A model generated the notes under the pieces. That model was not told the origin of the DNA and ran no database searches. It saw only the letters and a program-made list of their open reading frames with translations. From Anaerolineaceae bacterium (lineage in GTDB: Bacteria; Chloroflexota; Anaerolineae; Anaerolineales; Villigracilaceae), in assembly GCA_009772985.1 (NCBI GenBank), contig WOUS01000001.1:1-64000 (forward strand): a stretch of 64,000 nucleotides of DNA. The letters are read 5' to 3'. How positions within the stretch are numbered: position 1 is the stretch's first letter; each line of letters opens with the position of its first letter. This document shows positions 12,566-32,223 of this stretch, piece after piece. The position numbers and the translations under genes are program-made.

Positions 12566-12580
12566 TGCAATCCTTCCGGG

Positions 12581-12631
12581 AAAAACGTAAAGCGTAAAGA
12601 ATGCTCATTACGTTTTACGTTTTACGTTTTA
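12581..12631. repeat. AAACGTAAA / TTTACGTTT repeat
   Basis: AAAAACGTAAAGCGTAAAG is followed by an inverted TTACGTTTTACGTTTTACGT run, overlapping the stop codon of the permease gene. Closely related sequence also occurs within the permease coding region at about 13386-13423 and 14126-14152. Confidence 0.7.
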
Positions 12632-14386
12632 GAACTCTCCCGCGCCGGGGAAACGCAGTTTCTCGATGAGCAGAATCCCCGCGCCGCAGACGAGCATCAG
12701 GACGGTCGCCATCGCCATCGCCTGGCCGTAGTTCAGTCCGCCGGGCTGGGAGAGGAAGCGGTAGATCGCCACCGGCAGGGTCGGGTACTCCGGCCGCGAG
12801 ACGAGCGCGGTGGCGCCGAACTCGCCCAGCGAGACAGTGAAGGCGAACACCGCCGCGGCCAGCGTGGCGCGCCGGACGATGGGCCAATCCACGGCGAACC
12901 AGGCGCGGACGGGCGAGGCGCCGAGCGAACCGGCGGCCTGCCGCAGCCGGTCGGGGATGGAGGCCAGGGCAGGCTGCAGGCTGCGGATGACGAACGGCAG
13001 GGCGATGAGCGTGTGCGCCAGCGGGACCATCCACGGGGAGGCCAGCATCCGGCCGAACGAGACGATGAATCCCAGGCCGAGGGTCACGGCCGAGGCACCA
13101 AGCGGCAGCATCAGGAACGGGTCGAGGATGCGTTCGAGGCGGCGCGGACGGGCGAGGGCCGCGGCGGCGGGAAAGCCGAGCGCCAGCGACAGGATCACGG
13201 TCAACGCGGCGTAGCCGAGCGAGTTCCCCAAGGCGCGAACCGGCGGAACATAGAACAGCGACCCGGTCCGGTTGACGAACAGTTCGGTGTAGTAGTTCGC
13301 CGTCAGCCCATAATGAATCTGGCCGCGCTGGCCGAGGTCGGCTTCGAGGCGGGCGACGGAGCGAAAGGGTAGGGAGGCGAGCGGCAAAAAGTAAAACGCA
13401 AAAAGTAAAACGCAAAAAGAGGAGACGAAGAGGCGCTGACTCCAGGCGCGGGCGCGGCGCAGGTTGGAGACGGCGGGGCGCGGCGCGGACGCGGCGGCGC
13501 GGGGCACGAGGCGGCTGTACAGGATGGAGAACACCAGCGTGCACAGGAGTTGGATGAGCGAGAGCCAGGCCGCCAGCGGCAGGTTGAAGAACCGGACGGC
13601 CTGCAGGTAGGTTTCCACTTCGAGGGTGGCGAAGCGTGAGCCGCCGAGCAGGAGCACAACGCCGAAACTGGTGAAGTCGAACAGGAAGACCAGCAGCGCC
13701 GCCGCCAGCAGGGACGGGCGCAGCAGCGGCAGGGTCACGCGCCAGAAGAGGCGGGGCGGGTCCGCGCCGAGGGAACGGGCGGCCTGGTCGAGGCGCGGGT
13801 CGAGGTGGGCGAGGGCGTTGCCGGCCATGCGGACGACGATGGTGGTGTTGTAAAAAACGTGGGCGAGCAGGATGGCGCCGAGCGTCCCGACAAAGATGAC
13901 CGGCGGCGACTCGAGGCCGAAGAGGCGCATCAGGGCCAGGTTGAGCCAGCCGCGCGGTCCCAGCCAGGCGTTGAACCCGGCGGCCACGACCACGGTCGGG
14001 AGCATGAACGGGATGGCCGTCAGCGTGCGCAGGAAGGCTTTGCCGCGGAAGTCGAAGCGGGCGAAGAGGAAGGCGGCGGGCAGGCCGAGAGCAAGGGTGA
14101 GCAGGGTGGAGAGAAAGGCCTGGTAAAAAGTAAAGCGTAAAACGGAAAACGTAAGGGCGAAGTTATCGGCGGTGAGGGCGGAGAGGTCGAGGCTGAGGGC
14201 AAGGATACGCGCGATGGGGTAGAAAAAGAAGACGCCGAGGAAGGCGGAGACTCCCAGCCAGGGGGCAAGGCGAATCAGCGAATCAACGATTCGACGATTC
14301 GGCGAATCAGCGGAACTGCGATTCGGCGGATTACCGGGTCGCTGATTCGCTGACTCGCTGACTCGTTCATTCGCTGACTCGTTCAC
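12629..14386 (-). CDS. thiP: thiamine ABC transporter permease (two fused halves)
   Basis: 585 aa, about 12 transmembrane segments in two homologous halves. Each half has the EAA loop that docks the ATPase: LDQAARSLGADPPRLF in the first and LRQAAGSLGASPVRAW in the second. ThiP proteins are usually about 530 aa. The excess here is largely an N-terminal ~40 residues (NESANERVSESANQ...) translated from 8-bp tandem repeats, and segments around CVLLFAFYFL and VLRFTFY that derive from AAACGTAAA-type repeats. No ribosome binding site precedes ATG 14386, so the true start may lie inside the repeat or just before SLIRLAPWLG. Confidence 0.82.
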   Translation of the reverse strand: MNESANERVSESANQRPGNPPNRSSADSPNRRIVDSLIRLAPWLGVSAFLGVFFFYPIARILALSLDLSALTADNFALTFSVLRFTFYQAFLSTLLTLALGLPAAFLFARFDFRGKAFLRTLTAIPFMLPTVVVAAGFNAWLGPRGWLNLALMRLFGLESPPVIFVGTLGAILLAHVFYNTTIVVRMAGNALAHLDPRLDQAARSLGADPPRLFWRVTLPLLRPSLLAAALLVFLFDFTSFGVVLLLGGSRFATLEVETYLQAVRFFNLPLAAWLSLIQLLCTLVFSILYSRLVPRAAASAPRPAVSNLRRARAWSQRLFVSSFCVLLFAFYFLPLASLPFRSVARLEADLGQRGQIHYGLTANYYTELFVNRTGSLFYVPPVRALGNSLGYAALTVILSLALGFPAAAALARPRRLERILDPFLMLPLGASAVTLGLGFIVSFGRMLASPWMVPLAHTLIALPFVIRSLQPALASIPDRLRQAAGSLGASPVRAWFAVDWPIVRRATLAAAVFAFTVSLGEFGATALVSRPEYPTLPVAIYRFLSQPGGLNYGQAMAMATVLMLVCGAGILLIEKLRFPGAGEF

Positions 14387-14430
14387 TCGCTGACTCGCCG
14401 ATTCGCTGATTCGCTGACTCGCTTCGTCAC
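14280..14430. repeat. 8-bp tandem repeat (GCGARTCA on the minus strand)
   Basis: About a dozen imperfect units of GCGAGTCA / GCGAATCA run across the junction between the substrate-binding protein gene and the permease gene and into the permease N-terminal coding region. Confidence 0.8.
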
Positions 14431-15464
14431 CTCAGCACCGCGTCCGTCCAATCGGCGATCCAGCGGTCGCGGTTGGCGGCGATGATTGCCGAGTCGAGCG
14501 CGGCGGGCTGGTCCGCCAGCGGCGCCCACTGGACGAAAACGTCCGGCAGTTGCGCGTCCGGGTTGACCGGGTACATGAACATTTGCAGCGGAATATCCTG
14601 CTGGAATTGCACGCCGAGCATGAAGTCCACGAACTTCTCGGCCAGGGCGCGGTTCGGCGTCCCTTTCAGGATGCCGACGAACTCGATCTGGCGGAAGCAA
14701 GCGCCGGGTCCGAGGACGGCGGCGGTGGGAGCGGCGTCCACGGGCGGGTCGGCGTAGAACACTTCCGCGGCCGGGCTGGAGGCGTAGGAAAGCACCAGCG
14801 GCTGCGGTCCGCGCCCCGACGAGCCGGAGAAGTTGACGTAGTAGGCCGCGTTCCAGTCGTCTGCCACGACCAGGCCGTTGGCGCGCAGGGACCGCCAGTA
14901 GTCGAGGTAGCCGGGATCGCCGAATTTGGCAACCGTCGCCAGCAGGAATGCCAGGCCGGGCGAGGAGGTGGCTGGATTCTCGACGACCAGCAGGCCGTTG
15001 TATTCGGGCTTGAGCAAATCTTCGAGCGTCCCCGGGACCGGGAGGCTGTGCGCCGCGAACCAGGCCTTGTCGTAGTTCAGGCAGACGTCGCCGTAGTCCA
15101 CCGGCAGGAGCTGATGGGTGGCGTCGAGTTGGAACTCATCCGGGACGTTCGCCAGCAGGGGCGAGTCGTACGGCTCGAAAATCCCGGCCTCGAGAGCGCG
15201 GGAGAGGAAGGTGTTGTCCACGCCGTAGAAAACGTCGGCCAGCGGCGCGTTTTGGGCGAGGATGGCTTTGTTGAGCGCTTCGCCCGCATCGCCGGATTTC
15301 AGGAAGACCACCTTGACGCTGTTGGCTTGCTCGAAGGCGGCGACTACGTCCGCGCTGACGGCGAAGGAGTCGTGGGTCATGACGGTCAGGGTGACGGGCC
15401 TGGGGAAGCAGGCAGTAAGCAGTGAGGCGGTAAGCAGAAGAGCGATAAGCAGAAAACGTTTCAT
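14427..15464 (-). CDS. thiB: thiamine ABC transporter substrate-binding lipoprotein
   Basis: 345 aa. Signal peptide with lipobox LLTACF, then a type 2 periplasmic binding fold beginning LTVMTHDSFAVSADVV, a start typical of ThiB/TbpA (the THDSF block), and continuing VFLKSGDAGEALNKAI and DVFYGVDNTFLSRA. It captures thiamine or its phosphates outside the cell and delivers them to the ThiP permease. It lies between thiN and the permease in an operon behind a TPP riboswitch, which supports thiamine as ligand. The stop is 40 nt before the permease ATG. Confidence 0.9.
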   Translation of the reverse strand: MKRFLLIALLLTASLLTACFPRPVTLTVMTHDSFAVSADVVAAFEQANSVKVVFLKSGDAGEALNKAILAQNAPLADVFYGVDNTFLSRALEAGIFEPYDSPLLANVPDEFQLDATHQLLPVDYGDVCLNYDKAWFAAHSLPVPGTLEDLLKPEYNGLLVVENPATSSPGLAFLLATVAKFGDPGYLDYWRSLRANGLVVADDWNAAYYVNFSGSSGRGPQPLVLSYASSPAAEVFYADPPVDAAPTAAVLGPGACFRQIEFVGILKGTPNRALAEKFVDFMLGVQFQQDIPLQMFMYPVNPDAQLPDVFVQWAPLADQPAALDSAIIAANRDRWIADWTDAVLR

Positions 15465-15497
15465 GGGAACCTCCGTTCAGTATTCAGTATTCAGTGT

Positions 15498-16175
15498 TCA
15501 GTGTTCAGTGTTCAGTCGGCGGTGGACGACGAGGAGCAGGCCTGACTCGATGGACACGGACGCGGAGCCGCCGAGCATTTCGTTGCTGATGCCGCGCGTC
15601 TTTTCAGGGGTGAGCGTTTCGCCGCGCAGGGGCCAGCGCAGGCCGTCGGTGACGATGCCGGTGACCGGTCTGCCCCAGGGGAGCAGGGAAACGATGTCGC
15701 CTGGTGAGCCTTCGACCCGAGTCCGGCCGCGCACGAACCAGGCCGCCTCCACTCCATCATCAAGCCGGACGTCAAGCGCGGCGAGCCGGGGATCGGTCAG
15801 CAGGGCGAGGTTGGCGAGGGTCTGGTCGAGGCGTCCGCCCAGCGCGCCGGCGATGACGATCTCGTCCGCCCCCTGTTCGACGGCGTACGCCAGGGCCAGT
15901 TCGAGGTCGGTCTCGTTTTTGTCGGGCGGATACGCGACGAGCCGGACCTGGCGCTCGTCTGCCCAGCGCCGGTCGTCCGCGGTCAGCGAGTCGAGGTCGC
16001 CGATAATTGCGGAGGGGACGAGGCCGAGGGCGCGCAGGCGGCGCGTCCCGCCGTCGGCGGCGAGCAGCAGGTCGCCGGGCTGGATCAAACGGCGGACAGG
16101 TTCAAGGCCTGCCCCGAGCGCAGTCGAGGGGTCCGGGAGCGAACCGTTGGCGAAGATGATGGCGCGGGATGGCAT
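15498..16175 (-). CDS. thiN: thiamine pyrophosphokinase
   Basis: 225 aa. Transfers pyrophosphate from ATP to thiamine to give thiamine diphosphate. Motifs: DLLLAADGG, IIGDLDSL, YPPDKNETDLELAL and GALGGRLDQTLANL, all typical of the catalytic domain; the C-terminal ~80 residues form the thiamine-binding beta domain. Start ATG 16175 matches the family N-terminus (SRAIIFANGSLP); the longer open frame upstream is translated riboswitch RNA. Residues about 14-22 (DPSTALGAG) are encoded by a palindromic intergenic repeat inserted in frame. First gene of the riboswitch-controlled operon. Confidence 0.92.
   Translation of the reverse strand: MPSRAIIFANGSLPDPSTALGAGLEPVRRLIQPGDLLLAADGGTRRLRALGLVPSAIIGDLDSLTADDRRWADERQVRLVAYPPDKNETDLELALAYAVEQGADEIVIAGALGGRLDQTLANLALLTDPRLAALDVRLDDGVEAAWFVRGRTRVEGSPGDIVSLLPWGRPVTGIVTDGLRWPLRGETLTPEKTRGISNEMLGGSASVSIESGLLLVVHRRLNTEH
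16108..16134. repeat. palindromic repeat inside thiN coding sequence
   Basis: GACCCCTCGACTGCGCTCGG followed by GGCAGG on the minus strand, of the CCCTTCGACTTCGCTCAGGGCA repeat type. It encodes DPSTALGAG. The same repeat type in the same frame encodes DPSASLGAS in the flavoprotein gene at 63061-63084. Confidence 0.7.
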
Positions 16176-16191
16176 AAGGAGTTTCCTGTGC

Positions 16192-16236
16192 GCGGGGGTT
16201 GCTTCGCCTGGAAGAGCGCCAGGCTCGCAACGACAC
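16192..16236. repeat. short TTGCGAGC / GAAGCAA palindromic repeat in thiN leader
   Basis: GGTTGCTTCGCCTGG and CCAGGCTCGCAACGACAC arms flank GAAGAGCG. It is a relative of the larger repeat at 8070-8202 and lies between the attenuator and the thiN start. Confidence 0.6.
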
Positions 16237-16243
16237 GCCTGAA

Positions 16244-16269
16244 ACAAAAATCCTCCGCCTGGGGAGGAT
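16244..16269 (-). terminator. riboswitch attenuator
   Basis: On the minus strand ATCCTCC (16269-16263), a 6-nt loop and GGAGGAT (16256-16250) are followed by TTTTTGTTT. It lies just downstream of the TPP aptamer and upstream of thiN, the position expected for a ligand-dependent terminator. This suggests control by premature termination rather than only by translation. Confidence 0.75.
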
Positions 16270-16283
16270 GGTTGGATGAAAAC

Positions 16284-16370
16284 TATGGTCCCTCCGCCGG
16301 TATGATCCGGATCAGGTTCTGCGGGTCGAGCGTTTACGCTCCTCTCAGCCTGTCTTACAGGCTCCCCGTT
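16284..16370 (-). promoter_or_regulatory. TPP riboswitch (THI box)
   Basis: Read on the minus strand: GGGGAGCC, CTGAGAGGA, ACCCGCAGAACCTGATC, then CCGGATCATACCGGCGGAGG. These match the conserved pyrimidine-sensor helix (CUGAGA) and pyrophosphate-sensor helix (ACCUGAUC...GGAUCAUACCGGCGGAGGGA) of TPP riboswitches. High TPP should favour the terminator downstream and shut off the thiN-thiBPQ operon. Confidence 0.95.
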
Positions 16371-16384
16371 CAATTGTCGCCGCC

Positions 16385-16422: not shown

Positions 16423-17247
16423 TCAGCGCACGCGGCGCTTCCACTCTTCCTTCAAGCGCAATTCTTCCGGGTCGGCGCCCGATTCGAGCGCCAGGAAGTC
16501 GGCCATCAGGCGGTTGAACGGCTGGCTTTCGTCGAGCATCGGGAAGTGGCCGGACTGTTCGAGGGGCACCAGGTGCATCCGTTCCGGCTTGGTCTCGATC
16601 CATTGCTCGGACGGGGCGCTGACAGCCGGGTCGTTCATCCCATGCACCATCAGGCAGGGGATCTGGAGCTGGCTCATAATGGCGGTGAAATCGAAATTGG
16701 TCAAACCGTTCATGGAAACGGTGATCGCCTGCGGGTCGGTCTTGGGAGTGTCGGTGCGGACGGCTTCGGCGAGCGGGTCGCGGCCGGCCAGCCAGTCGGC
16801 CAGGTCGGCGGGCGAGGCGGGGGAGCGCAGGCGGGCAGCGACATCTGTGATGGCCAGCGGGACGCTGACGACCATCATGCGGTCCACCTGGGCGGGGAAC
16901 TTGCGGGCGAACAGGATGGAGGTCAACGCGCCGAGGCCGTGGGCAACGATGGCGATCTTGCCGGTGCGCGCGCCGGCGGCTTCATCCTTGATGATCAGGC
17001 CCATCTTGAGCAGGAAATTGTCGAGCATGACAGCCTGCTTGTCGAGGGCATAGTAAAGCGGGTCGTGAGCGGTATCGCCGAAGCCCCACAGGTCGAGCGC
17101 ATAGCAGCGGTAGGACACGGCCGCGGTCTGCATGGCCGGGACCCAGTACCGCCACGTTCCGACCCAGCCGTGCAGGAAGATGACCGGACGTCCGCGTCCG
17201 AGCACTTCGTAATGCACGATGCCTTCTTCGAGGATGACTGCGCTCAT
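16423..17247 (-). CDS. alpha/beta hydrolase fold protein lacking the nucleophile serine
   Basis: 274 aa with an alpha/beta hydrolase core: oxyanion-hole motif FLHGWVGTWRYW, LDLWGFGDT, and a late histidine in LEQSGHFPMLDES. The nucleophile elbow reads VAHGLGALTS where active enzymes have GHSMGG, so the serine is replaced by glycine. The paralogue at 29010-29807 in the same operon keeps GHSMGG and has a near-identical N-terminus (EGIVHYEVLGRGRP versus QGIVHYEVYGRGRP). A binding or regulatory role, not hydrolysis, is inferred. Last gene of the ten-gene unit, starting 11 nt after the preceding stop. Confidence 0.82.
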   Translation of the reverse strand: MSAVILEEGIVHYEVLGRGRPVIFLHGWVGTWRYWVPAMQTAAVSYRCYALDLWGFGDTAHDPLYYALDKQAVMLDNFLLKMGLIIKDEAAGARTGKIAIVAHGLGALTSILFARKFPAQVDRMMVVSVPLAITDVAARLRSPASPADLADWLAGRDPLAEAVRTDTPKTDPQAITVSMNGLTNFDFTAIMSQLQIPCLMVHGMNDPAVSAPSEQWIETKPERMHLVPLEQSGHFPMLDESQPFNRLMADFLALESGADPEELRLKEEWKRRVR

Positions 17248-17258: not shown

Positions 17259-17633
17259 TTAATGTCTGTGCTGCGTCAAAATCGCCTGGATGCGGGTGGT
17301 CAACTGGTCGGGAGCAAAAGGTTTCAAAAGGTATTCGACCGCGCCGGCGCTCAGGCCGGCCTGGATTTCATTATCCTGTCCTTTCGCCGAGAGGAACATA
17401 ATTGGAATGTCCTTCGTTTTCTTGTTTTCTTTTATTTTGGCGCAGGCTTCGTAGCCGGTCATGCGCGGCATGCGCACGTCGAGCAGGATCAGGTCGGGGA
17501 TTTCCTGCAAGGCCAGGGTCACGGCTTCCTCGCCATTACTGGCCGCGACTACTTCGTACCCGGCAAAACGGAGGGTGAAGGTGATTAGATCCCGGATGTC
17601 GCGTTCGTCTTCTGCAATCAGTATTTTCGCCAT
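17259..17633 (-). CDS. single-domain response regulator (CheY-like)
   Basis: 124 aa, only a receiver domain. The acidic pocket is ILIAEDERD, the phosphoacceptor Asp lies in LILLDVRMP, and the conserved lysine in LLKPFAPD. No output domain, so it works by protein contact or as a phosphate relay. It starts 3 nt after the giant kinase stop, which makes it the obvious phosphotransfer partner of that kinase. The downstream neighbour is the serine-less hydrolase homologue. Confidence 0.93.
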   Translation of the reverse strand: MAKILIAEDERDIRDLITFTLRFAGYEVVAASNGEEAVTLALQEIPDLILLDVRMPRMTGYEACAKIKENKKTKDIPIMFLSAKGQDNEIQAGLSAGAVEYLLKPFAPDQLTTRIQAILTQHRH

Positions 17634-17636: not shown

Positions 17637-20600
17637 TCACTCCTCAACCTCATAGTTGGGCAGGGTGAACGAGAACGTGCTTCCCTCGCCCGGCATACCC
17701 ATGCTTTCCATCCATATCTTGCCCTTGTGCATGTTGACCAACTGGCGGACGATGGCCAGCCCCAGACCGGTTCCCGGGGTCGCCAGCACGAGCGGATCCT
17801 CGCCCCGGTAGAACCGCTCGAAGATGCGGTCCTGGTCGGCCAGCGGGATGCCGATGCCGGTATCCTTCACGTCCACCTGCACGGCGCTGTCCACGGGCTG
17901 GATGTGGATGGTGATCTGCCCGTTGGCCGGGGTGTAGTGATAGGCATTGTCCACCAGGTTGGTCAGCACCTGGCGGACGCGTTCCAGGTCGCCGTTCACG
18001 CGCGGCAGATCGGGCGGGGCGTCGAGGGTCAGGCCGATCGGCTTGTTCTCTTCCTGCGAACGGCGCAGCAGGTCGGTGATCACGTCGTCGGCGATCTCGC
18101 GCAGATCGAGCGCCTGCAGGGAGAGCGAGACGCGCCCGGCCTCGATGCGGGAAATGTCGAGCAGGTCGTTCACCAGGATGCTCAACCGATCGGTGTTGGC
18201 GCGGACGATGTCCAGGAAGTGGTTCTGGTTCTCGTTCAGCGCGCCGGCTGCGCCCATCAGCAGGATATCCACGTAGCCTTTGATGGAAGTCATCGGCGTG
18301 CGCAATTCGTGGCTGACCGTGGCCACGAATTCAGACTTGAGCCGGTCCACTTCGACCTCATGCGTGATGTCGCGGAAGATGGAGACCGTGCCCAGGAACT
18401 CGTCCTTCCAGATGACCGGCGACAGGTGGACCAGCACCACCTTGCCGGTTTCGAGGGTAAGTTGTTCGGCGTAGGTGTCGCCGGGCTGGTGGCTGGCCGG
18501 GTTGTTCGACCAGGAGCGGATGGTCAGCATCCAGGTCTGAGCCGCCTTGCCGAACAGGCCGACGAAACTGTCCAGCGTCTGGCCGAGGACCTGTCCCGAT
18601 TTCAGGCCGAGGATGCGTTCGGCCGACAGGTTCAGGAAGTTGATCACGTTGCCGGAATCGGTGACCAGCACGCCGTCGGCCACGGCTTCGAGGATGGCCT
18701 GCTGGCGGCTGGCCTCCACCTGCTGGCTGCGCAGCATCGAACCGAGACGTTCGGCCTGGTCGCGGATCAACTCGTACAACTGGGCGTTGTTGATGGCCAC
18801 GGCCACCTGGCTGCCGATGGCCTGCACCAGGTTCATCTGTTCCGGCGTGAAGTAGTCGGTCTGGCGGTGGAAGACCATGATGGCGCCGATGACTTCCTCG
18901 CCGACCATCAGCGGGGCGGCCACCACGCTGCGATGCAGGGGCGAACTGAGCGGCAGTTTGACCCAGCGCTTGTCCTTGCGGACGTCCGGGATGCGCACCG
19001 CCTGGCGGTTCTTGATCACCCAGCCGGCCAGTCCTTCGCCGACCTTGAGCGGGGTGGGTTTCGTGCTCTCCGTCATGACCGGGGTGACGTAGCCGTAGCC
19101 GGCGCGGTAGTGGATCGTGCCGTCCTGCTGGTTCAGCATGAGGATGCTGCCCTGCTCGGCGCCGATGGCGTCGTTCAGCAGCGCCAGGGTGCGGTTGAGG
19201 GCGCGGTCGAGGTCGAGGCTGGCCGAGACCTCGGTCAGGATGCGCAGGAGAGTTTCGGTGCTGCGCTGTTCCCGCTGGAGTTCGGCGGTGCGCTCGACCA
19301 CGCGCTGTTCCAGTTCCTCGTTCAGGCGGCTGGTCTCGGCGAAGAGCCGTCCGTTCTGGATGGCGACCGCGGCCTGGTTCGCCAGGGTGCCGAGGATCTG
19401 CTGCTCTTCCGTGCCGTACATGTTCGGCTGGTAACTCTGCGCCGAGAGCATGCCGATGATCTTGCCAGCCATGGTGATGGGAACGGCCACGATGGAGCGC
19501 GGCTGGCCCTCGCCAAACGTCTGCCCGCCGAGGGCCTCCACCTGCTCCATATCGGAGATGAGCAGCGGCTCGCCGCTGGCAATGACGCGTCCGCTCAGCC
19601 CCTCGCCGAGCGGGATGTGGACGTTCGGGGAGCGCCCGCCCGGGTCCATTAGGTAAGCGCCTTCGATGTCGCCCTGCTGTTCGTCGAGCAGGGCGATGAC
19701 GAACGATTCGGCCGGCATCAACTGGCTGGCGGCGCGGTGGATGGCGGCGTAGATCTCCTCCGGGTCGAGGCTGAGGCCGATCTCGTAGGAGGCGCGGTTG
19801 ATGATGGTCAGTTGCTCAGCGCGCGAGACCGTGGCCTGGTAGAGGCGGGCATTTTCGAGGGCAATGGCCGCCTGGTTGGCGATGGTGCGCGCCAGTTCGA
19901 TCTCGGTGGCGGAGAAGCGGACTTCCTCCGCCGTGTGGACGAACATCAGGGCGCGCAGGTTGGCGCCGCCCACGAGCGGCAGGACCAGCAGGGAGGCCGT
20001 CCCCTCGAGAAAACCGGCGAGCGGCTGGAGGTCCGGTTCGGTGGCGACGTTGGCGGCGCTGAAGACACCCAGCGACTCGCGCAGCCGGTCGAAGAGCGGG
20101 ACGGCGGGCATCGGCCGGGGCTGGGTCTCGCCGCCGGCGGCGGGGACGGTCATCCGCTCCACGGCCGCGCCGAACCGGTCGAAGGTCACGACCGAGACGC
20201 GCGCCGCTACCAGGGCCGAGCGCAATTCCTCGGCGGTCAGGTGCAGGATCTGCTCTTCGTTCAGCGAACCGCTCAGGCTGGCAGAAAGACGGTTGAGCAG
20301 CGCCAGCCTTTGCGAACGCTGGTCGAGTTCGGCGGCGCGGCGGACGCTCTCTTCGTACAAGCGGGCGTTGTCGAGCGAGACGGCGGACTGGCTGGCGAAG
20401 GTGGTGATGAGCTGCGAGTGCTCGACGGTGTAGAAGTGCGCCTCGGCTTTTTCGAGGGCGATTACGCCGGTCACTTCGCCCTTGGAGACGAGCGGGATGC
20501 CCATCCAGGCCAGGCGGTCAGGCTCCACCAGCGCGGGGAAGCGCGGGTCGGTGCGCACGTCGCCGACGATGATGGCCTGCATGGAGCCGATCATTTCCTT

Positions 20601-23600
20601 GAGCAGCGCCGAGTCTTCCACGGCCACCGTCAGGCCGATGCGCTCCTCGTCGTCGCCAAAGCCGCGCGCCGCCGCCGCCGAGAGGCGGTCTTCCTGGCGC
20701 AGCCACAGAATAGCGGTGTCATATGGCAGGATGGAGCGCAGCTGGTCGAGCAGGCCGGCGATCAACTGTCCCGATTGCAGGCTGGCGGTCATGGTGGTGG
20801 CGACGTTGGTGATGGCCTGCAACTGGGAGGCGCGTTCCTGCGAGGCCTGCACCAGGCGGACGTTCTCGAGGGCCAGCGCCACCTGCTGGGTCAGCGAAAG
20901 CAGGAGCGCCTCGTCTTCGGCAGAGAAGGCCGCGGCGGTGTTGAAGTTGTCCAGCACCAGCACGCCCAGCGCCTGTTCGGCGGTCTGGATGGGGATGAGC
21001 AGGCTGGAGACGGGCAGGCGCCCGGCGGTGGCTTCGCGGTAGCGGAGCAGATGCTCGGCGGGCAGGTTGTAGTCGCGGGCGAAGTTGACCTCGTCCACGC
21101 GGCGGGGCTGGCGGGACTCGAAGACCCGTCCGGGCAGGGCCTCGCCGGGGCGGTAGAGGATATCCTTCAGGCTTTCGACATTGGCATAATTGGCCGCCAC
21201 TTTCAGGACCAGGGCGGCCTGCTGCTCGTCCCAGGCCAGCACCGCGCCGGCGTGGGCGGCGGTCACCACGCGCAGGGCGCTGTCGAGCAGGGCTTTGATG
21301 ACGTTATCCGGGTCGAGACCGCTCAACTGGCGGCTGAAGTCGAGCAGCAGGTTGACCTCACGCAGGCGCCGGCGGGTCTCGGTGAGCAGGCTGATGTTCT
21401 GGAGGATGATGGAGACCTGGCGGGAGATCTGGAAGTAAACCTGCCGGTCTTCGTCGGTCAACGCCGGCATCGGCTCAGGGCTGAGCGCCAGGACGCCGGC
21501 CACCGGTTTGCCCTCCACCAGGATGGGGAGGCAAATGAAGCCCTTGGCGTGCAGGCTGGCAAGCAGCGGCGTGTCGCGCCAGGCGTCGTCCTGTTCGAGG
21601 TTCATCACCAGCAGCGTCTCGCCGGTCTGCAGGCTGGCGCGGAGCGGGTTGCGCTGGCCGAAGAGGGCCTCGGGACTGGTACCGCGCGGCACGTTCCCCA
21701 GCACGTGCAGCAGGTGCGGACCTTCGGGCGTGTTCTCGGCCACGATGGAAACGCTCATCTCCAGGCGGGTGAGCATCTCGCGGCCGAGCGCCAGCAGCGC
21801 CGACGGGCTGTCCACCTGGCGGTTGATGATCTCGGTCAGTTCGAGGCCGGCGCGGATGCGGCGGGCGCGGCGCTCGAGGTTGCGGATGGCGATCATCTGC
21901 TCCAGGTCCTTGTGGAGCAGGACGGGCAGGTGGCTCTGGCTGACCGACAGCAGTTGTTCCTGCCGTTCCAGGCTGGTCTTGAGCGTCTCCGACTGGCTGC
22001 GGAAGGCGGTCAGGAGGCGGCTGGACTGGATGACGAGCGCCGCCTGGGCGGCAAACACTTCCACCGTTTCCAGCGCGACCCGGTCCGGGCGCAGGCCGTC
22101 GCGCGGCGCGTCCAGGCTGATGAGGCCGACAGGATTCCCCTCGGAGTCGTGCAGCGGGTAGAGCAGCGTGTCCTCCGGATGCCAGGCATCCGGCGCCTGG
22201 CTGGAGGTATCTGGCAGCAGGGTGACCAGTTCGACTTCCGAGGAAACCACCGGCGTCTTGTCGAACGGAATGAAATACCCCTGGCCGACCTTGAACTCGT
22301 CGCGCAGCAACTGGCCGAGACCCGACCAGGGCTGCTGGCGAGCTTTGAGCATGTTGAGCGTTTCGATGGGCATGCCCACGCCCGCCACCCGGCGCTGGAT
22401 CTGGGTCTCGGATTCCACGATGCTGACCAGCACCACCTGGAAAGGTGTGGCTTCCTGGATTCCGTACGCCAGCGTCTCGAGCGACTCCTCCAGCGGTTTT
22501 TCGATCCCCAGCACGCTGGAAGTCTCGAACAGTTTGGTCATGGCGTCTGAGCGGCGGCGCAGCAGTTCGTTGCGCTGGGTCTGCTCGCGGTAGCGTTGGT
22601 AGTTGCCGAGCGCGATGGCCGCCTGCACCGCCAGGGACTGCGTGATCTCGATGGCAGTCCCGTCGAAACAGCCGGGTTCGGCGGCGTGCAAGTGGATCAA
22701 CCCCGAGGTTTTTTCCTGGTAGGAGATCGGCGCCACCAGTTCGGAAAGCACTCCCTCGTGGGCGGGCTGGTACCCTTGCGGGTCGGGATGGTTTACTATC
22801 CGCGGTTTGCCATCCTGCAAGACCGCCTGCTCGACCGGGGAAAGGCCGCCGGTGGGCGCGTCGCCGGTGAAAGCGATGATCGCCGGCTCGCCTTCGGGCT
22901 GCGTCTCGAAGAACAGGATCGCGCCGCAGGAGGCGCGCGTCGTCTGCAGGGCCTCGTTGTGAACCACCTGGAGCAGGCGGTTCAGGTCGAGGGTGCTGCT
23001 CAATTCCCGGCTGATGCGGGTCAGGGAGGAGAGGTGCTCGATGCGGCGGCGCAGGGTCTCGTCAGTCTGGCCGCTGAGCAGGCTGCTCTCCACCGCCGAG
23101 GCCAGCTGCCCGGCGGCGGTGGCCATTACCTGCAAGTCATAACTGTCAAAGAAGTCCTTTTTCCGGCTGCCGATCATCATCTCGCCGAGGCCGCGCTCAT
23201 GCACCACCAGCGGCACCAGGATGGATGATTCCATCCTGAGCGTCTCAACCATGGGGCGGTACACCGGCAGGATACGTTGATCCTCCGAGAGGTGGGTCGA
23301 GAGGAACGAACGGCGGCTCCCGGTGACTGTGGATGGGAACTGGGCGTTGTCCACGAACAGGCGGGAGAGCGGAGCGGTCTCTTCGGCAGAGACCCCCCAG
23401 AGCGAGGCAGTGTGCAGGCTGAGCGCGCCCTGCACCTCGTCGAGCAGGAAGACGGCGGCCGCGTCGGCCTGCATCAGGCGTCCCAGTTCCTGGAGGGCGT
23501 AACGAAGGATCTCGTCCAGCGTGGCGGAGGAACCCGCCAGGCTGGAGATCCGCCGCAGGGACTCCGAGCGCTGGGCGCGCCGGCGGCTCTCGCGGACAAG

Positions 23601-25076
23601 CGTGAAATTGTCAATGATCGGGGCAGACTGGTTGGCGATAATGCTCAACAGGCGCAGCTCGTCGGGGGTGAAGCCTGCCCCGGCCTGGCGGTGGTTGCAG
23701 GCCTGCAAATACCCCAGCGGGCGTCCCGCCGAGACGAGCGGCATAAGCACACCGTCACGCAGGCTGGCCGCCTGGGCATAATCGTGGAAGCCAAGCACAC
23801 CCCAGGATTCATCCTCGGCGGCATCTTCGGTGATGAGCGGCTCCTGCCGCAGGAACATCTCCTCCGCCGGGCTGCCCGGTGGGAGCGCCAGCGTGTACAA
23901 CTCCACGAACTGGGAGGGCAGGCCGATGAACGGGACCTGCGCTTCCAAGGAATGACGGTTTTCGTTGAAGAGGAAGAAACCGATGATGCCGACATCAAAC
24001 AACGGGGCAACGGCCTGGATGAGCCGGGCAAACAGTTCCTGCGGTTCGTTCGTCAGGCCGATGGCCTGGGTCAGTTTCGCCAGGCCGCTCAGTTCCGCCG
24101 TCTGCCGCTGCTGCGCTTCGAGCATGAACGCGTTGCGCAGGGCCACAGCCGCCTGCCCGGCCAGCAGCTGCAAAATGTCGAGATCCTCCGGCGCAAAGGC
24201 ATCCGCCGTCTTCAGGCCGACCTCCAGCGTGCCGACCAGGTCCTCGCCCGCCAAGAGCGGGACGCCCATGTACGAGCGCATCGGCGTCGTTTCGCCTCCG
24301 GCGGAGGCCGGCAGGCCGGTATAGGTCTGGGTATCGGGGATCAGCAGGGGGCGGCGTTGCTCGATGATGGCTTTGGCATATCCCGCCGGGGGACGCGGCA
24401 TCCCCTTCTCGACGCGGCGCTCGGACCCGGGTCCGGCGCCGAAGCGGAAGGAGGTCAGCAGTTCCTCCACCGCGTTCCACATCTGGATCTCCAGCATGTC
24501 CGCCGGCAGGATGCGTTCCACGTTCTCCAGGATGGCCTGCGCGGCCGCCCTGACCCCCTGGTTGACCGAAACCGTCTGGCTGAAATCGGTCAAGATGCGG
24601 AGCGCCGGGCCGGCCACATCCCCCCGCCCCTCCGCCGCCAGCCCAGCCGGCAACTCGGGGCGCTGCAGCGATACCAGCAGGCCGGGGAAAGCGCCCGGGA
24701 TCTGGTACGAAACTCCCTCCAGCGGGCGGCCGTTCAAGGAAAAGCGCGCCTGCCCCTCGGCGGCGCACAGTTTCAGGAAATCTTCGCCGGGACGGATGCG
24801 GCGCGCCAGCAGTTCGATGTTCGGCTGTTCCCCTTCGCGCAGTTCGAACCAATCGCGCACGGTGGCGTTGGCGTAATCAATCCGCCCGCCGGATTGTACG
24901 ACCAGCACGGCATGGTGGTGGGTCGAAAGGCCGGCGGCCTGCGGGGGATTCGAGACAGGGATGGACGCCGGCCGCTGGCGTGGGACGATAAAGCGCAGCA
25001 CAATCCAGGCCAGCGCGCCGAAAACGACCGCGACCAGGACCAAAACGAGACCGATAGACACCAATTGCGCTGGCAT
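17637..25076 (-). CDS. giant sensor histidine kinase with eleven tandem GAF domains
   Basis: 2479 aa. One N-terminal transmembrane segment (about 8-30) and a PAS-like segment (about 45-135) are followed by eleven GAF domains across roughly 160-2100. Each GAF ends in a recognisable helix, for example GQAAVALRNAFML, NQAAIALENARLY, NQAAVAIQNGRLF. A PAS domain follows (about 2120-2235, VADGVLVTDSGNVINFLN). HisKA comes next, with the phosphoacceptor in ATVSHELRTPMTS (His about 2255), then HATPase (about 2360-2475) with DTGIGIP and GTGLGLAIVRQLV. The kinase half is therefore complete. GAF domains bind small ligands or chromophores; what eleven of them sense is unknown. It is preceded by one response regulator and followed by another. 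Confidence 0.93.
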   Translation of the reverse strand: MPAQLVSIGLVLVLVAVVFGALAWIVLRFIVPRQRPASIPVSNPPQAAGLSTHHHAVLVVQSGGRIDYANATVRDWFELREGEQPNIELLARRIRPGEDFLKLCAAEGQARFSLNGRPLEGVSYQIPGAFPGLLVSLQRPELPAGLAAEGRGDVAGPALRILTDFSQTVSVNQGVRAAAQAILENVERILPADMLEIQMWNAVEELLTSFRFGAGPGSERRVEKGMPRPPAGYAKAIIEQRRPLLIPDTQTYTGLPASAGGETTPMRSYMGVPLLAGEDLVGTLEVGLKTADAFAPEDLDILQLLAGQAAVALRNAFMLEAQQRQTAELSGLAKLTQAIGLTNEPQELFARLIQAVAPLFDVGIIGFFLFNENRHSLEAQVPFIGLPSQFVELYTLALPPGSPAEEMFLRQEPLITEDAAEDESWGVLGFHDYAQAASLRDGVLMPLVSAGRPLGYLQACNHRQAGAGFTPDELRLLSIIANQSAPIIDNFTLVRESRRRAQRSESLRRISSLAGSSATLDEILRYALQELGRLMQADAAAVFLLDEVQGALSLHTASLWGVSAEETAPLSRLFVDNAQFPSTVTGSRRSFLSTHLSEDQRILPVYRPMVETLRMESSILVPLVVHERGLGEMMIGSRKKDFFDSYDLQVMATAAGQLASAVESSLLSGQTDETLRRRIEHLSSLTRISRELSSTLDLNRLLQVVHNEALQTTRASCGAILFFETQPEGEPAIIAFTGDAPTGGLSPVEQAVLQDGKPRIVNHPDPQGYQPAHEGVLSELVAPISYQEKTSGLIHLHAAEPGCFDGTAIEITQSLAVQAAIALGNYQRYREQTQRNELLRRRSDAMTKLFETSSVLGIEKPLEESLETLAYGIQEATPFQVVLVSIVESETQIQRRVAGVGMPIETLNMLKARQQPWSGLGQLLRDEFKVGQGYFIPFDKTPVVSSEVELVTLLPDTSSQAPDAWHPEDTLLYPLHDSEGNPVGLISLDAPRDGLRPDRVALETVEVFAAQAALVIQSSRLLTAFRSQSETLKTSLERQEQLLSVSQSHLPVLLHKDLEQMIAIRNLERRARRIRAGLELTEIINRQVDSPSALLALGREMLTRLEMSVSIVAENTPEGPHLLHVLGNVPRGTSPEALFGQRNPLRASLQTGETLLVMNLEQDDAWRDTPLLASLHAKGFICLPILVEGKPVAGVLALSPEPMPALTDEDRQVYFQISRQVSIILQNISLLTETRRRLREVNLLLDFSRQLSGLDPDNVIKALLDSALRVVTAAHAGAVLAWDEQQAALVLKVAANYANVESLKDILYRPGEALPGRVFESRQPRRVDEVNFARDYNLPAEHLLRYREATAGRLPVSSLLIPIQTAEQALGVLVLDNFNTAAAFSAEDEALLLSLTQQVALALENVRLVQASQERASQLQAITNVATTMTASLQSGQLIAGLLDQLRSILPYDTAILWLRQEDRLSAAAARGFGDDEERIGLTVAVEDSALLKEMIGSMQAIIVGDVRTDPRFPALVEPDRLAWMGIPLVSKGEVTGVIALEKAEAHFYTVEHSQLITTFASQSAVSLDNARLYEESVRRAAELDQRSQRLALLNRLSASLSGSLNEEQILHLTAEELRSALVAARVSVVTFDRFGAAVERMTVPAAGGETQPRPMPAVPLFDRLRESLGVFSAANVATEPDLQPLAGFLEGTASLLVLPLVGGANLRALMFVHTAEEVRFSATEIELARTIANQAAIALENARLYQATVSRAEQLTIINRASYEIGLSLDPEEIYAAIHRAASQLMPAESFVIALLDEQQGDIEGAYLMDPGGRSPNVHIPLGEGLSGRVIASGEPLLISDMEQVEALGGQTFGEGQPRSIVAVPITMAGKIIGMLSAQSYQPNMYGTEEQQILGTLANQAAVAIQNGRLFAETSRLNEELEQRVVERTAELQREQRSTETLLRILTEVSASLDLDRALNRTLALLNDAIGAEQGSILMLNQQDGTIHYRAGYGYVTPVMTESTKPTPLKVGEGLAGWVIKNRQAVRIPDVRKDKRWVKLPLSSPLHRSVVAAPLMVGEEVIGAIMVFHRQTDYFTPEQMNLVQAIGSQVAVAINNAQLYELIRDQAERLGSMLRSQQVEASRQQAILEAVADGVLVTDSGNVINFLNLSAERILGLKSGQVLGQTLDSFVGLFGKAAQTWMLTIRSWSNNPASHQPGDTYAEQLTLETGKVVLVHLSPVIWKDEFLGTVSIFRDITHEVEVDRLKSEFVATVSHELRTPMTSIKGYVDILLMGAAGALNENQNHFLDIVRANTDRLSILVNDLLDISRIEAGRVSLSLQALDLREIADDVITDLLRRSQEENKPIGLTLDAPPDLPRVNGDLERVRQVLTNLVDNAYHYTPANGQITIHIQPVDSAVQVDVKDTGIGIPLADQDRIFERFYRGEDPLVLATPGTGLGLAIVRQLVNMHKGKIWMESMGMPGEGSTFSFTLPNYEVEE

Positions 25077-25088
25077 GACCGGGAACGG

Positions 25089-25994
25089 TTATCCTTTGAG
25101 CGCGGCTCCCGGAGCATCCTGCCTGCGGACTTCGGCAGCCATTTCGGTGATCTCGCGGATGTCGGAGAACGACTGCTGCCTGGGAGAAACCACGCCGACA
25201 GAGAGGGCCATCAACGGGGCTTTCTCCTGGCCTTCCGGCCGCGGAACCATGATGTAGCCCTGCTGCCGGTCCATGAAATTGTAGTGGCTCAGGATCTCCT
25301 CGGCAAAGCGTTCCTTCAACCGCTGGCGGATCTTCTCCGCCGCGCCTTCCGTGGTGATGACGACGAAGTTGGCGCCCCCGGCGTGACCGATGAAATCGTT
25401 GGGTGTGCCGATCTCGTCCACCACTTCGGTCAACAGCATGGCCGCGAAGCGCAGCGCGTCATCCCCGGCGACAAATCCGTACACATCGTTGAACTTGTCG
25501 AAGAAGTTGACGCGGATGTCCATGTATGCCCAGCCTTCCTGCCGGATGAACTGGCGCAGCTGCTCCTCGATCAGCCGCCCCGCGGGGAGACCGGAACGCG
25601 GGTCGGTGAGGGCTTCGCGCTCCGCCCGGCGGATGGCGCCCATGACGCGCAGTTTCAACTCTTCGATATCGAACGGCTTGGTGATGTAATCGTCCGCGCC
25701 CAGTTCCAGGCCTTGCAGTTTGTCGCTGCGTTCGTCCTTCTGGGTCAGGAAAATCACCGGGATGTGGCTGGTGCGCGTACTGGTGCGCAGCGTGCGGCAG
25801 ACCTCGTACCCGTCGATATCCGGGAGCATGATGTCCAGCACGATCAGGTGAGGCAGCGCATGGCGCGTCTTTTCCAACGCGTCCGAGCCGCGCGCGGCCA
25901 CATCCACATCGTAGCCCAGCCCGCTGAAATAGATCTTCAGCATGTTGGAGATGTCGTTATCGTCTTCAACCACCAAAAGGCGTGATTTTCCCAT
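25089..25994 (-). CDS. response regulator with degenerate GGDEF domain
   Basis: 301 aa. The receiver domain is about 1-125 (LLVVEDDND, phosphoacceptor Asp in [13 protein letters not shown], Lys in ITKPFD). The second half (about 135-290) has the diguanylate cyclase fold outline (LTDPRSGLPAGRLIEEQL, VNFFDKFNDVYGFVAGDDAL), but the catalytic GGDEF loop reads GGANF, so c-di-GMP synthesis is unlikely. It could bind GTP or act through protein contact. It starts 12 nt after the reductase-like gene's stop and precedes the giant kinase, its probable partner. Confidence 0.88.
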   Translation of the reverse strand: MGKSRLLVVEDDNDISNMLKIYFSGLGYDVDVAARGSDALEKTRHALPHLIVLDIMLPDIDGYEVCRTLRTSTRTSHIPVIFLTQKDERSDKLQGLELGADDYITKPFDIEELKLRVMGAIRRAEREALTDPRSGLPAGRLIEEQLRQFIRQEGWAYMDIRVNFFDKFNDVYGFVAGDDALRFAAMLLTEVVDEIGTPNDFIGHAGGANFVVITTEGAAEKIRQRLKERFAEEILSHYNFMDRQQGYIMVPRPEGQEKAPLMALSVGVVSPRQQSFSDIREITEMAAEVRRQDAPGAALKG

Positions 25995-26006: not shown

Positions 26007-27095
26007 TCAATTGCGTCTCCGCGCCTGTTGGGCGCGCTTGCGTATGGATTCGATTTGTGCGGCAGTCACCTCGCGCTCGAACGAGCGGAAACCGCTCAGC
26101 CGGAAACCGTGCTTTTCGGCGATGGCGGTGATTTCTTCCACGCGCTGGCGGGTGATGTGTTTGCCCAAAGTATAATCCTCGAAGCGGCCTTCCAGCGCCA
26201 GGGCCATCGTCTCAGCCATGCAGGCATAGGCGCTGCCAGGTGGAAAGCCAAAGTTAAAATGGAAATCAACGGGGCCGGGAACTTCGACCATGCCGCCGTC
26301 AATCACTAATATATCATCTCTAACTGCCGCCACCATTGCAGATACGTCGCGGGGGCGGGCCACGTCGCAAATTACGCTGCCCGGCCGGAGATGTTCGGGC
26401 CGGATGACATCGTGGACCGCGCTGGTGACGGTCAGGATCAGCTGGACATCGGACAACGCGTCCATGCTGGCGCTGGTGCGGAGTTCGGCGCGTGCCCGGA
26501 CCCCGATCCTGCCGCGCAATTCCTCGAGCGGCTCCTCCCGGCGGGCTATGAGGACCAGTTCGGCCACCTCGTCCGCCAGCAGTTCGGCGCAGACCTGGCC
26601 GATGGAGCCGGTTGCCCCGACCACCGCGGCGGAGGCCTCCCCAAGCGGGATATCCATCAGCCGCGCCGCCTCCCGGATGGCCTGCACCGCCATGGCGACC
26701 GTATACGAATCGCCCGTGGTGACCGGGATGTCGAGCGCCCGGGCGATGGTCACGCCCGCGTCCCCGACCACCGAAGTGAACGCGCCCAGGCCGAGCATCT
26801 GCGCGCCGAGTCTCTCGGCCAGGCGTCCTGTCTGGATAATCTTACGATAAACTGTCCGTTCTGGCAACTCCAACATGCGGCGCGGCGTGTACGGACAGGC
26901 AACAAACCAGCCCCGAACTTCCTTGCCCGTCGCCCGGGAGGTGACGCCGTTGATCTCGGAAATGTAGACGGGCGGGAAAAATGTGGAGAAGAAGTCAATC
27001 TGCCGTTCGGTGAGATGGCGGCCTAAGAACGGGTACTTCCGGCTGACATCCCGCTTGGGATCAATCGGGTGGATGATGAATGCAAAGGTGTCCAC
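26007..27095 (-). CDS. acyl-ACP-reductase-like dehydrogenase
   Basis: 362 aa. It resembles cyanobacterial acyl-ACP reductase (AAR), which reduces fatty acyl-ACP to aldehyde. Shared features: an N-terminal domain ending WFVACPYTPRRML, the segment LGLGAFTSVVGDAGVTIA, a TTGDSYTVAMAVQAI block, and a Rossmann NADPH site AAVVGATGSIGQVCAELLAD followed by VLIARREEPLEEL. No aldehyde decarbonylase gene is nearby, so hydrocarbon formation is not implied. Start GTG 27095 lies 4 nt after the previous stop and gives the natural N-terminus DTFAFIIHPIDPKRD; the upstream open frame overlaps the preceding gene. Substrate is inferred. Confidence 0.72.
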   Translation of the reverse strand: MDTFAFIIHPIDPKRDVSRKYPFLGRHLTERQIDFFSTFFPPVYISEINGVTSRATGKEVRGWFVACPYTPRRMLELPERTVYRKIIQTGRLAERLGAQMLGLGAFTSVVGDAGVTIARALDIPVTTGDSYTVAMAVQAIREAARLMDIPLGEASAAVVGATGSIGQVCAELLADEVAELVLIARREEPLEELRGRIGVRARAELRTSASMDALSDVQLILTVTSAVHDVIRPEHLRPGSVICDVARPRDVSAMVAAVRDDILVIDGGMVEVPGPVDFHFNFGFPPGSAYACMAETMALALEGRFEDYTLGKHITRQRVEEITAIAEKHGFRLSGFRSFEREVTAAQIESIRKRAQQARRRN

Positions 27096-27099: not shown

Positions 27100-28377
27100 T
27101 TACCATTTGAGGTCCGCCTCGCCGCGCTGGCGGGGATACAGACGCGGGTGCTTGGAGGCGTCCCGCAGCCGGTGGTGGTCGCTGTCTTCGTAGGCCACGT
27201 CGTGGTCAATGATGCGCCGGTCTTTGGAGGCGAAAATCACCACGTCCGATTCGATCATGCGCGCCGGGAAGATGATGATGCCCGATCCGAGACGGCAGTT
27301 GTGCCCCACACAACAGCCCAGCACGGGCCGGTTGGCGTTGGTCAGTTTGTTGTGGCCGTCGCGGGCGCGGATGGGTGCCGGGATGAGGTTGTAATCTGTG
27401 AAGGTGTTGCCGGCGCCGATGAACGTGTTGCGCCCGATGACGCACATTTGCAGGCAGGTATTTTGCGCCACCATGCCGTGCTCCATGATGGTGGTCATAA
27501 AGAGCGAGGCGCGGAACGGCAGGAAGGTGCCGTCGCCGACCACCGAGAGCATCAACTGGCAGTCCTGCGAGATGTTGACGTTGCTGCCGATGATGCAGTT
27601 CTCGATGATCGAACCGGCGTTGATGGTCACGTTGTCGCCGATGGTGGTCGGGCCGTGGATGACGGCAGTCGGGTCAATGACGCAATTTTTGCCAATCTTG
27701 ACCAGTTCCGAGCATTCCAGCAACTGCCGGCCCTCGTAGACCGCCTTCGCCAGCACGCGCAGTTTGAAGGCCAGGTCCCGGCCCAGGCGGTCTTCGAAGC
27801 GCGCCCCGCGCGCGAACAGGCCAAAGACGCCGTCGGCGATGAAGACATGCACCCACGAGTCGATGGCGATCATTGCCCGCAGCGGCACCTGGTAGAGCAG
27901 GTCGCCGCTCTCGGTGGCCATGTAGGTCGGGACGTGGTAATAGCCGATCTCGCGGGCTTGCATATCAATGACCAGGTCCTCCACTGCCGTGGTGGGGCCG
28001 TTGGGGTAATACCACAGGTCGGCGTAATACAGCCTCCCGGCGGGAGTGTAGGATGTGGAGAGCGGCAGGGCATGTTCGCGGAATGCCGCGTCTTCCAGGG
28101 AAAAGGCGGCGCGCACCGCGCGGTTGCGTTTGCGCGCGGCGGTGATGAATGCTTCGATGTAATGCCGGTCGAAGTACAGGTTGTCGCGGTAGACGATCAT
28201 CGGTTCGCGCGAGACCGGCAGCGGCGCGCCGGGCGCGAGTTCCAGTTCGCCGGTCACGTAAGGGGCCAGCAGGTCGCGCTGGTTCAGCCAGAGCGGTTTG
28301 TTCTGGATGCGCAGGTCGCGCGCCGGTTCGTTGAACGGCGGGATGAGACGGGGGGCAGGCAGGATGATCTTAAGCAT
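27100..28377 (-). CDS. left-handed beta-helix (hexapeptide repeat) protein
   Basis: 425 aa. The N-terminal half (about 1-220) is of unknown type. Residues about 225-380 carry imperfect hexapeptide repeats (IGKNCVIDPTAVIHGP, IGDNVTINAGSIIENCIIG, IGRNTFIGAGNTFTD, VGHNCRLGSGIIIFP), the left-handed beta-helix of acyl- and nucleotidyl-transferases. Such proteins are usually trimers. There is no sugar-nucleotide motif, so an acyltransferase or scaffold role are both possible. The neighbouring acyl-ACP-reductase-like gene makes acyl chemistry plausible. 4 nt separate the two genes. Confidence 0.75.
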   Translation of the reverse strand: MLKIILPAPRLIPPFNEPARDLRIQNKPLWLNQRDLLAPYVTGELELAPGAPLPVSREPMIVYRDNLYFDRHYIEAFITAARKRNRAVRAAFSLEDAAFREHALPLSTSYTPAGRLYYADLWYYPNGPTTAVEDLVIDMQAREIGYYHVPTYMATESGDLLYQVPLRAMIAIDSWVHVFIADGVFGLFARGARFEDRLGRDLAFKLRVLAKAVYEGRQLLECSELVKIGKNCVIDPTAVIHGPTTIGDNVTINAGSIIENCIIGSNVNISQDCQLMLSVVGDGTFLPFRASLFMTTIMEHGMVAQNTCLQMCVIGRNTFIGAGNTFTDYNLIPAPIRARDGHNKLTNANRPVLGCCVGHNCRLGSGIIIFPARMIESDVVIFASKDRRIIDHDVAYEDSDHHRLRDASKHPRLYPRQRGEADLKW

Positions 28378-30380: not shown

Positions 30381-30391
30381 CCTCGAAAAAA

Positions 30392-31210: not shown

Positions 31211-31256
31211 GTCGGTCCTCGTACCTATTTCTTTCGGGGATGTAAAACGTAAAATG

Positions 31257-31285
31257 ATTATACATGGATGGACGCCATGCGTCAA
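31257..31285 (-). promoter_or_regulatory. consensus promoter of the ten-gene signalling operon
   Basis: TTGACG (31285-31280), a 17-nt spacer and perfect TATAAT (31262-31257), on the minus strand. Predicted start ~31250, giving a 40-nt leader to the DUF4388 ATG. No other comparable promoter was seen in the short gaps of the unit. Confidence 0.85.
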
Positions 31286-31380
31286 AGGGCAGTCGCCATC
31301 AAATCCGCAGGTAACATCCATCAACACATCGTGGGAAAAGTGGAACTTTAACTCCAGCGCTTTCGCCTGCGGTGTATGCT

Positions 31381-32192: not shown

Positions 32193-32223
32193 CGGGGGCC
32201 TCGCTTCTTTCGAGTGTCTGTTA

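Follow-up and report, generated by a model that had tools for sequence, protein, structure and literature searches.

A giant histidine kinase gene lies on the minus strand at positions 17637-25076 of the window (the whole stretch of DNA that was analysed, 64,000 nucleotides) and encodes 2479 amino acids from an ATG start. GC content in this frame is 0.88 at the third codon position compared with 0.43 at the second. Three long plus-strand frames (641, 937 and 902 amino acids; 17727-25985) are antisense to the kinase region and are probably by-products of high third-position GC. That the kinase itself might be an artefact is ruled out by the presence of full-length relatives in 16 loci and three named records.

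The kinase gene belongs to a tight run of ten minus-strand genes reaching from 31327 down to 16423, with gaps of at most 21 bp when the GTG at 27095 is taken as a start, and this run is an apparent operon. It begins with a DUF4388 gene (30392-31327), followed by genes for a small Ras/Arf-like GTPase (29829-30380), an alpha/beta hydrolase (29010-29807), a V4R-domain protein (28384-29013; 30.2 bits, just below the Pfam cut-off of 31), a hexapeptide-repeat transferase-like protein (27100-28377) and an acyl-reductase-like protein of the AAR or PigE N-terminal type (26007-27095, with the GTG as its likely start). The latter is closest to the N-terminal half of PigE and to cyanobacterial AAR, and scores below both NCBIfam cut-offs. 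Next are response regulator RR1 (25089-25994; 301 amino acids), in which a REC domain is joined to a degenerate GGDEF domain (AGGANF), the kinase, response regulator RR2 (17259-17633; 124 amino acids), which is a lone REC domain, and a second alpha/beta hydrolase as the last gene (16423-17247). Apart from the V4R and acyl-reductase-like genes, these neighbours were assigned by Pfam. Both response regulators that the first-pass annotation had placed on either side of the kinase are present.

The small GTPase gene adjoins the DUF4388 gene at the operon head (29829-31327), which recalls the actinobacterial conservons (AGPS), where a histidine kinase and a small Ras-like GTPase also share one operon (PMC13343842, accessible portion). 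However, the operon in the window has receiver proteins as well as acyl-reductase-like and hydrolase genes, and none of its ten genes has a roadblock (CvnB) or CvnC-type match (Pfam, E<=0.01 or E<=0.001), so that identity as a conservon was rejected. Elsewhere in the window, genes for thiamin pyrophosphokinase, a solute-binding protein and, by eye, a permease and an ABC ATPase stand in a row at 11549-16373, and look like thiamin salvage or uptake. At 31518-38632, PhoU, an ABC ATPase, a PAS histidine kinase (36696-38048) and an OmpR-type regulator (37916-38632) form a cluster like those of phosphate regulation, and at 39133-45407 a REC-PAS-GAF-HD protein (1007 amino acids) adjoins a multi-PAS hybrid kinase (1071 amino acids).

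The domain order of the giant kinase is one membrane helix, a PAS-like domain, eleven GAF domains, PAS, HisKA and HATPase. A Pfam scan of the whole protein yields 11 GAF (PF01590) stretches, then PAS, HisKA and HATPase_c. When GAF1 through GAF9 were cut out singly, each scored above a Pfam GAF gathering score, the lowest being GAF5 (26.3 bits against 22.4), and in the whole-protein scan GAF10 and GAF11 are the top-scoring stretches of PF13185 and PF01590. GAF profiles made from the window kinase and its relatives also give 11. Thus the eleven GAF domains of the first-pass annotation hold up in a profile search that could have returned far fewer, and its N-terminal helix and PAS/HisKA/HATPase module are likewise found.

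GAF1 (amino acids 160-332; 24081-24599), GAF2 (333-508; 23553-24080) and GAF3 (509-685; 23022-23552) are each supported by the Pfam score of the isolated piece, by alignment and by a structure model, and GAF3 also by a structure match. GAF4 (686-846; 22539-23021), with a predicted cofactor site at C717, D739, H773 and H797, is supported by its Pfam piece and residue conservation, and GAF5 (847-1024; 22005-22538), a distinct GAF type, by its Pfam piece, a profile and a model. A long linker (1025-1079; 21840-22004) leads to GAF6 (1080-1244; 21345-21839), GAF7 (1245-1422; 20811-21344) and GAF8 (1423-1594; 20295-20810), which again have Pfam pieces, alignment and a model, and to GAF9 (1595-1759; 19800-20294), with a Pfam piece and alignment. 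GAF10 (1760-1915; 19332-19799), which appears to be a position of exchange, is supported by Pfam and trees. Beyond another long linker (1916-1947; 19236-19331), presumably helical, are GAF11 (1948-2107; 18756-19235; Pfam and alignment) and PAS (2118-2240; 18357-18725; Pfam). HisKA (2241-2316; 18129-18356) and HATPase_c (2317-2479; 17640-18128) are supported by Pfam and by box residues. The H-box with phospho-acceptor His2256 and the N, G1 and G2 boxes of HATPase_c are intact, as in an orthodox HisKA histidine kinase.

The N-terminus consists of a single hydrophobic helix (amino acids 3-30, in both sequence and model) followed by a basic stretch (24954-25076 together), and its sequence suggests a location at the membrane. 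Residues 42-150 (24627-24953), between this helix and GAF1, may adopt a PAS-like fold that the first-pass annotation did not include. This segment has no Pfam match; the evidence for the fold is a profile comparison, in which it weakly resembles the C-terminal PAS (hhalign probability 41, E 2.8e-4), and the strand/helix order in the model.

AlphaFold models were available for residues 1-690 and 847-1594 (excluding GAF4 and GAF9 to GAF11), as single chains with no dimer; their pTM is low (0.51 and 0.39) and they do not give relative domain placement. A GAF-kind pattern of strands and helices recurs along both models, whose Foldseek neighbours are GAF, phytochrome and PDE structures, including PDE2/5/6 GAFs. 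In the first model, GAF1 and GAF3 have single-domain structure matches at Z 19-20 and GAF2-GAF3 has a two-domain match; the match search scarcely reached the N-terminal PAS-like part. Single helices of 42-46 residues join GAF1-2, GAF2-3, GAF6-7 and GAF7-8, and one 87-residue helix (amino acids 999-1085), with confidence below 50 in places, spans GAF5 to GAF6 and contains the long linker. Between GAF3 and GAF4 the helix is broken at 669-671. Indels affect 0/347 residues of the linking helices in the modelled segments versus 19/931 elsewhere, where 'elsewhere' pools all residues outside these helices, other secondary structure included.

Linker lengths between consecutive GAF domains were measured from a fixed column in helix 5 of one GAF to helix 1 of the next. 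This yielded 662 junctions in 105 ORFs, from which 15 with an excess of at least 70 were dropped to leave 647. The default length, 2, is found in 335 junctions. After subtraction of this default, the remainder modulo 7 is 0 in 477 junctions, 4 in 149 and another value in 21, so that the offset from the default is 7k or 7k+4 at 626/647 junctions. Among non-default junctions alone, 291/312 are in these two classes, for which the chance expectation is 2/7. Many of the 21 exceptions are in other GAF proteins of the genome, near what by eye seems to be an extra loop residue. In contrast, 783 intradomain distances occupy all seven classes.

The linker proteins are mutually related and some were counted more than once. 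When each combination of cluster (50% identity) and length is counted once, 49/56 non-default entries obey the rule. Looser clustering, with default entries included, reduces the entries to a small number and weakens the excess, with 9/15 (30%), 13/19 (35%) and 24/30 (40%) in the two classes, and single-linkage clustering at 30-35% merges nearly all linkers, so that full independence is unattainable. A held-out set of six proteins from other classes, with one junction of excess at least 70 dropped, obeys the rule at 78/78 junctions, including 26/26 non-default ones, and its 85 intradomain distances are spread across all classes; as these proteins are mutually related, p values for this set overstate the case. 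The window kinase has linkers of 2, 2, 6, 9, 44, 2, 2, 9, 2 and 20, all ten of which conform. The third is 6, or 2 with other anchors, the GAF5-GAF6 linker equals the default plus 42, and the last equals the default plus 18.

Adding seven residues is known to keep a coiled coil in register, and an addition of four (a stutter) is accommodated (PMC6798134 and PMC9587094, accessible portions); such signatures recur between consecutive sensor modules (PMC6798134, same portion). PadC phytochrome-activated diguanylate cyclases and LOV histidine kinases have linkers whose lengths are separated by multiples of 7 or, among PadCs, by 4 (PMC9587094 and PMC6798134, text as available), but each was studied at one sensor-effector linker, whereas the window kinase has ten in series. 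The principle is therefore already known, and the series is an extension of it. Linker lengths that follow the heptad/stutter rule support a mechanical relay, and they bear out, if indirectly, the earlier suggestion of a long mechanical lever. Since those inter-GAF coiled coils that had been described from prokaryotes by 2006 run antiparallel (PMC1592074, accessible portion), a parallel rod is something we can only infer.

The closest named records of the kinase are from Anaerolineales and Chloroflexi MAGs. Matches at E<=1e-100 are present in 33/41 near genomes, comprising the genome itself, 5/10 congeners, 13/14 other family members and 14/16 others of the order; the remaining 5/10 congeneric genomes have no match at this threshold. 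The corresponding numbers are 44/121 at the class level and 27/121 at the phylum level (own genome included in each), and most matches beyond the order span only the C-terminal part, from approximately GAF9-GAF11 to the kinase. All 20 full-length sequences, the window kinase among them, have exactly eleven GAF positions in the same order. Mean pairwise identity in these 20 ranges from 0.42 (GAF1) to 0.67 (GAF6 and GAF11). GAF11 and GAF6 are the best conserved GAFs, and of all sensor parts GAF11 and PAS rank near the top in conservation. Invariant residues number 38 in GAF6, 35 in GAF7 and 41 in GAF8, but only 5 in GAF1 and 6 in GAF9.

The first-pass annotation had asked whether the eleven domains arose by internal duplication. 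Identity between positions is only 15-33%, and the domains mostly form separate old clades, such that recent internal duplication was rejected. Six orthologues, from six families and including the window kinase, and five further multi-GAF proteins encoded by its genome supplied 92 GAFs for a quick tree. In it, positions 1-9 and 11 each occupy one side of a branch, with support of only 87 for GAF1 and 94 for GAF4; position labels were set by profile rather than by the tree. GAF10 does not, and it alone looks exchanged. The GAF10 domains of 18/20 sequences group together (support 88), in a clade nested with GAFs from other proteins of the genome (98), and in L036 and L037 (locus handles) it is of another kind. 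The alignments and these quick trees indicate that the array is old and colinear, with position 10 as one exchange site.

Eleven is not a record number of GAF domains, as relatives reach 17, and the claim that such kinases are rare fails within the phylum, where homologues with 5-17 GAFs mostly stand beside the same response regulators. Twelve order loci (L069-L080) have 5-12 GAFs by the first profile, with two profile sets disagreeing on L076 (11 versus 7). The main kinase has 5-14 GAFs at 20 class loci, some of them cut by contig ends (for example L132), and 12-17 at six loci in other classes. L146 and L147, from another class, encode kinases of 3487 and 3677 amino acids with 17 GAFs each and RR1 adjoining. 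Most class homologues have a recognisable GAF5 type at its own place; L073 does not have it, and in L072, L078 and L079 it is weak. Among the other multi-GAF proteins listed for the window's genome, the largest arrays have 8 GAFs: L089 is a 2499-amino-acid frame with an N-terminal REC and 8 GAFs, and L091 a 2036-amino-acid frame with 8 GAFs, a histidine kinase and a REC pair. The window kinase, with an array ending in GAF-PAS-HisKA-HATPase and RR1 adjoining, belongs to a variable-length kinase family, by inference one of the Chloroflexota.

Eight neighbours were scored across loci (GTPase, hydrolase, V4R, hexapeptide, acyl-reductase-like, RR1, RR2 and second hydrolase), and the complete set is present at 16/28 order loci and 2/20 class loci. 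RR1 is beside the kinase at 27/28 order loci, 19/20 class loci and 6/6 loci of other classes, and RR2 at 27/28 and 18/20 order and class loci; these labels are best hits, so that every REC protein is assigned to RR1 or RR2, and several loci are incomplete. At 16/20 class loci (L125-L144) the kinase ends in a REC-REC fusion, which in L142 and, by eye, in L141 and L143 is accompanied by the N-terminal PAS-like domain. Because kinases of the class carry this fusion, phosphotransfer to RR1 and RR2 is supported, short of proof. RR1 is probably not a diguanylate cyclase, since its GGDEF motif is degenerate in the window and altered in the relatives listed (mostly GGDNF or GGDDF), in place of GG(D/E)EF.

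Pocket-column residues differ between GAF positions, and only GAF4 shows a clear cofactor-like set. Cys717, His773 and His797 are invariant in 20/20 sequences although GAF4 is otherwise among the least conserved GAFs; at residue 739, 9 of the sequences have D, 10 have C and 1 has H. Across 34 order-level rows that include these 20, all three residues are present in 31 and all are absent from three (L069, L075 and L080), with no mixed case; residue 739 in the 31 is D13, C13, E3, H1 and Q1. The set is also present in two further distinct sequences (L035 and L057), and in L076, where GAF4 scores too low for alignment, it is absent by eye. It occurs in 0/20 rows outside the order, which means that the site cannot account for what the family as a whole does. 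Because the residues are conserved and lost together, as expected of a bound cofactor, Cys717, His773, His797 and residue 739 are predicted to form a metal or heme site.

Sequence evidence establishes the domain order and shows that the kinase boxes are intact, that the array is ancient and colinear, that linker lengths are quantised and that neighbouring genes are conserved. We consider it probable, with room for doubt, that the protein is a membrane-tethered, cytoplasmic, homodimeric kinase rod that passes a GAF signal, likeliest cofactor-borne at GAF4, to the kinase and to RR1 and RR2. The eleven GAFs and their connecting helices would form one coiled-coil-coupled dimeric rod. Binding of a ligand or a redox change in a single GAF or a small number of them, the likeliest site being a GAF4-bound metal or heme, would twist or shift this rod, and the movement would pass through GAF11-PAS to the kinase core and alter phosphorylation of RR1 and RR2. 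Poorly conserved GAFs (1 and 9) would be mainly spacers and allosteric links, and GAF6, 7, 8 and 11 would serve as conserved modules for sensing or coupling. The response would involve the proteins encoded in this apparent operon, namely the small GTPase, DUF4388 and V4R proteins, the acyl-reductase-like enzyme and the hydrolases.

The kinase might instead sum inputs from many ligands, with most of its eleven GAFs binding different small molecules. Pocket residues do differ between positions and are kept within several (C/H/H in GAF4, A/G/D in GAF7, V/A/D in GAF5, and, in GAF8, T in the first column with E in the third), and the seven-GAF cyanobacteriochrome PtxD has bilin in at least six of its GAFs (PMC5812497, accessible portion). 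Nevertheless, so few residues are invariant in GAF1 and GAF9, and GAF number varies so widely while the flanking response regulators stay, that we regard this as unlikely. An even less likely arrangement is a mostly passive rod, whose GAF spacers hold the kinase and its partners away from the membrane while input enters only through the N-terminal part or GAF11-PAS. The C-terminal end is indeed kept as GAF count varies, and GAF11 and PAS are well conserved, but the many invariant residues of GAF6, 7 and 8 and the cofactor-like set in GAF4 argue otherwise. Phytochromes and cyanobacteriochromes are marked by a bilin-binding Cys, usually Cys-His, in a GAF domain, and cyclic-nucleotide-binding GAFs of the PDE/CyaB kind by an NKXnFX3DE motif. 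An array of photoreceptor or cyclic-nucleotide receptor domains, to which the Foldseek neighbours might point, is very improbable: a motif search of all 2479 residues finds no CH pair, a regular expression (n 10-40) finds no NKXnFX3DE, the kinase has only five Cys in total, and a common fold shows no function. Both identities were rejected.

The nature of the GAF4 cofactor bears on the probable rod model, which would otherwise be the same if GAF4 held heme of the DosS/DevS type rather than a non-heme metal. GAF4 matches DevS GAF-A structures by profile (E 2.5e-5), and the DevS proximal His may correspond to His773. However, the best PDB matches are cyanobacteriochrome GAFs, one axial ligand would suffice for heme and yet four ligand-type positions are kept, and residue 739 swaps among D, C, E and H; we accordingly doubt the heme version. 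NorR, whose GAF senses NO with a mononuclear non-heme iron held by the protein with Cys and Asp among its ligands, is a precedent for protein-ligated iron in a GAF domain, although it is a sigma-54 activator with Arg/Asp/Asp/Cys/Asp ligands rather than the Cys/Asp/His/His predicted for GAF4 (PMC4601167, accessible portion). A bolder proposal, which we offer tentatively as possible, is that GAF4 represents a new kind of sensory GAF with a mononuclear Cys-(Asp/Cys/Glu/His)-His-His metal site for gas or redox sensing. It would drive the kinase through seven of the ten in-phase linkers, over ~1,400 residues, to control the conserved GTPase/acyl-reductase operon, and across the phylum the lever would be tuned by gain and loss of GAFs in coiled-coil phase, within a range of 5 to 17.

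Giant multi-GAF kinases are not the subject of any report found in open-access PMC (listings and starts of abstracts); the wording 'seven GAF domains' is present there in two papers, and the corresponding wordings from 'eight' to 'twelve' are absent. PtxD (NpF2164), a phototaxis receptor, is also a long multi-GAF protein (PMC5812497, same portion), but it binds bilins and has fewer GAFs, and the window kinase is without a CH motif. DosS and DosT (DevS) are GAF-containing histidine kinases like the window kinase (PMC4601167, same portion), with two GAFs instead of eleven and with heme where only a predicted cofactor can be named here. The most interesting new item is the predicted GAF4 cofactor site, whose residue set provides a concrete guess for one input, and the conserved neighbourhood ties such kinases to a Ras-like GTPase and lipid-type enzymes. 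With its natural series of 5 to 17 GAFs, quantised linkers and a fixed kinase end, the family makes relay length, the distance over which a conformational signal can pass along sensor domains joined by coiled coils, directly testable.
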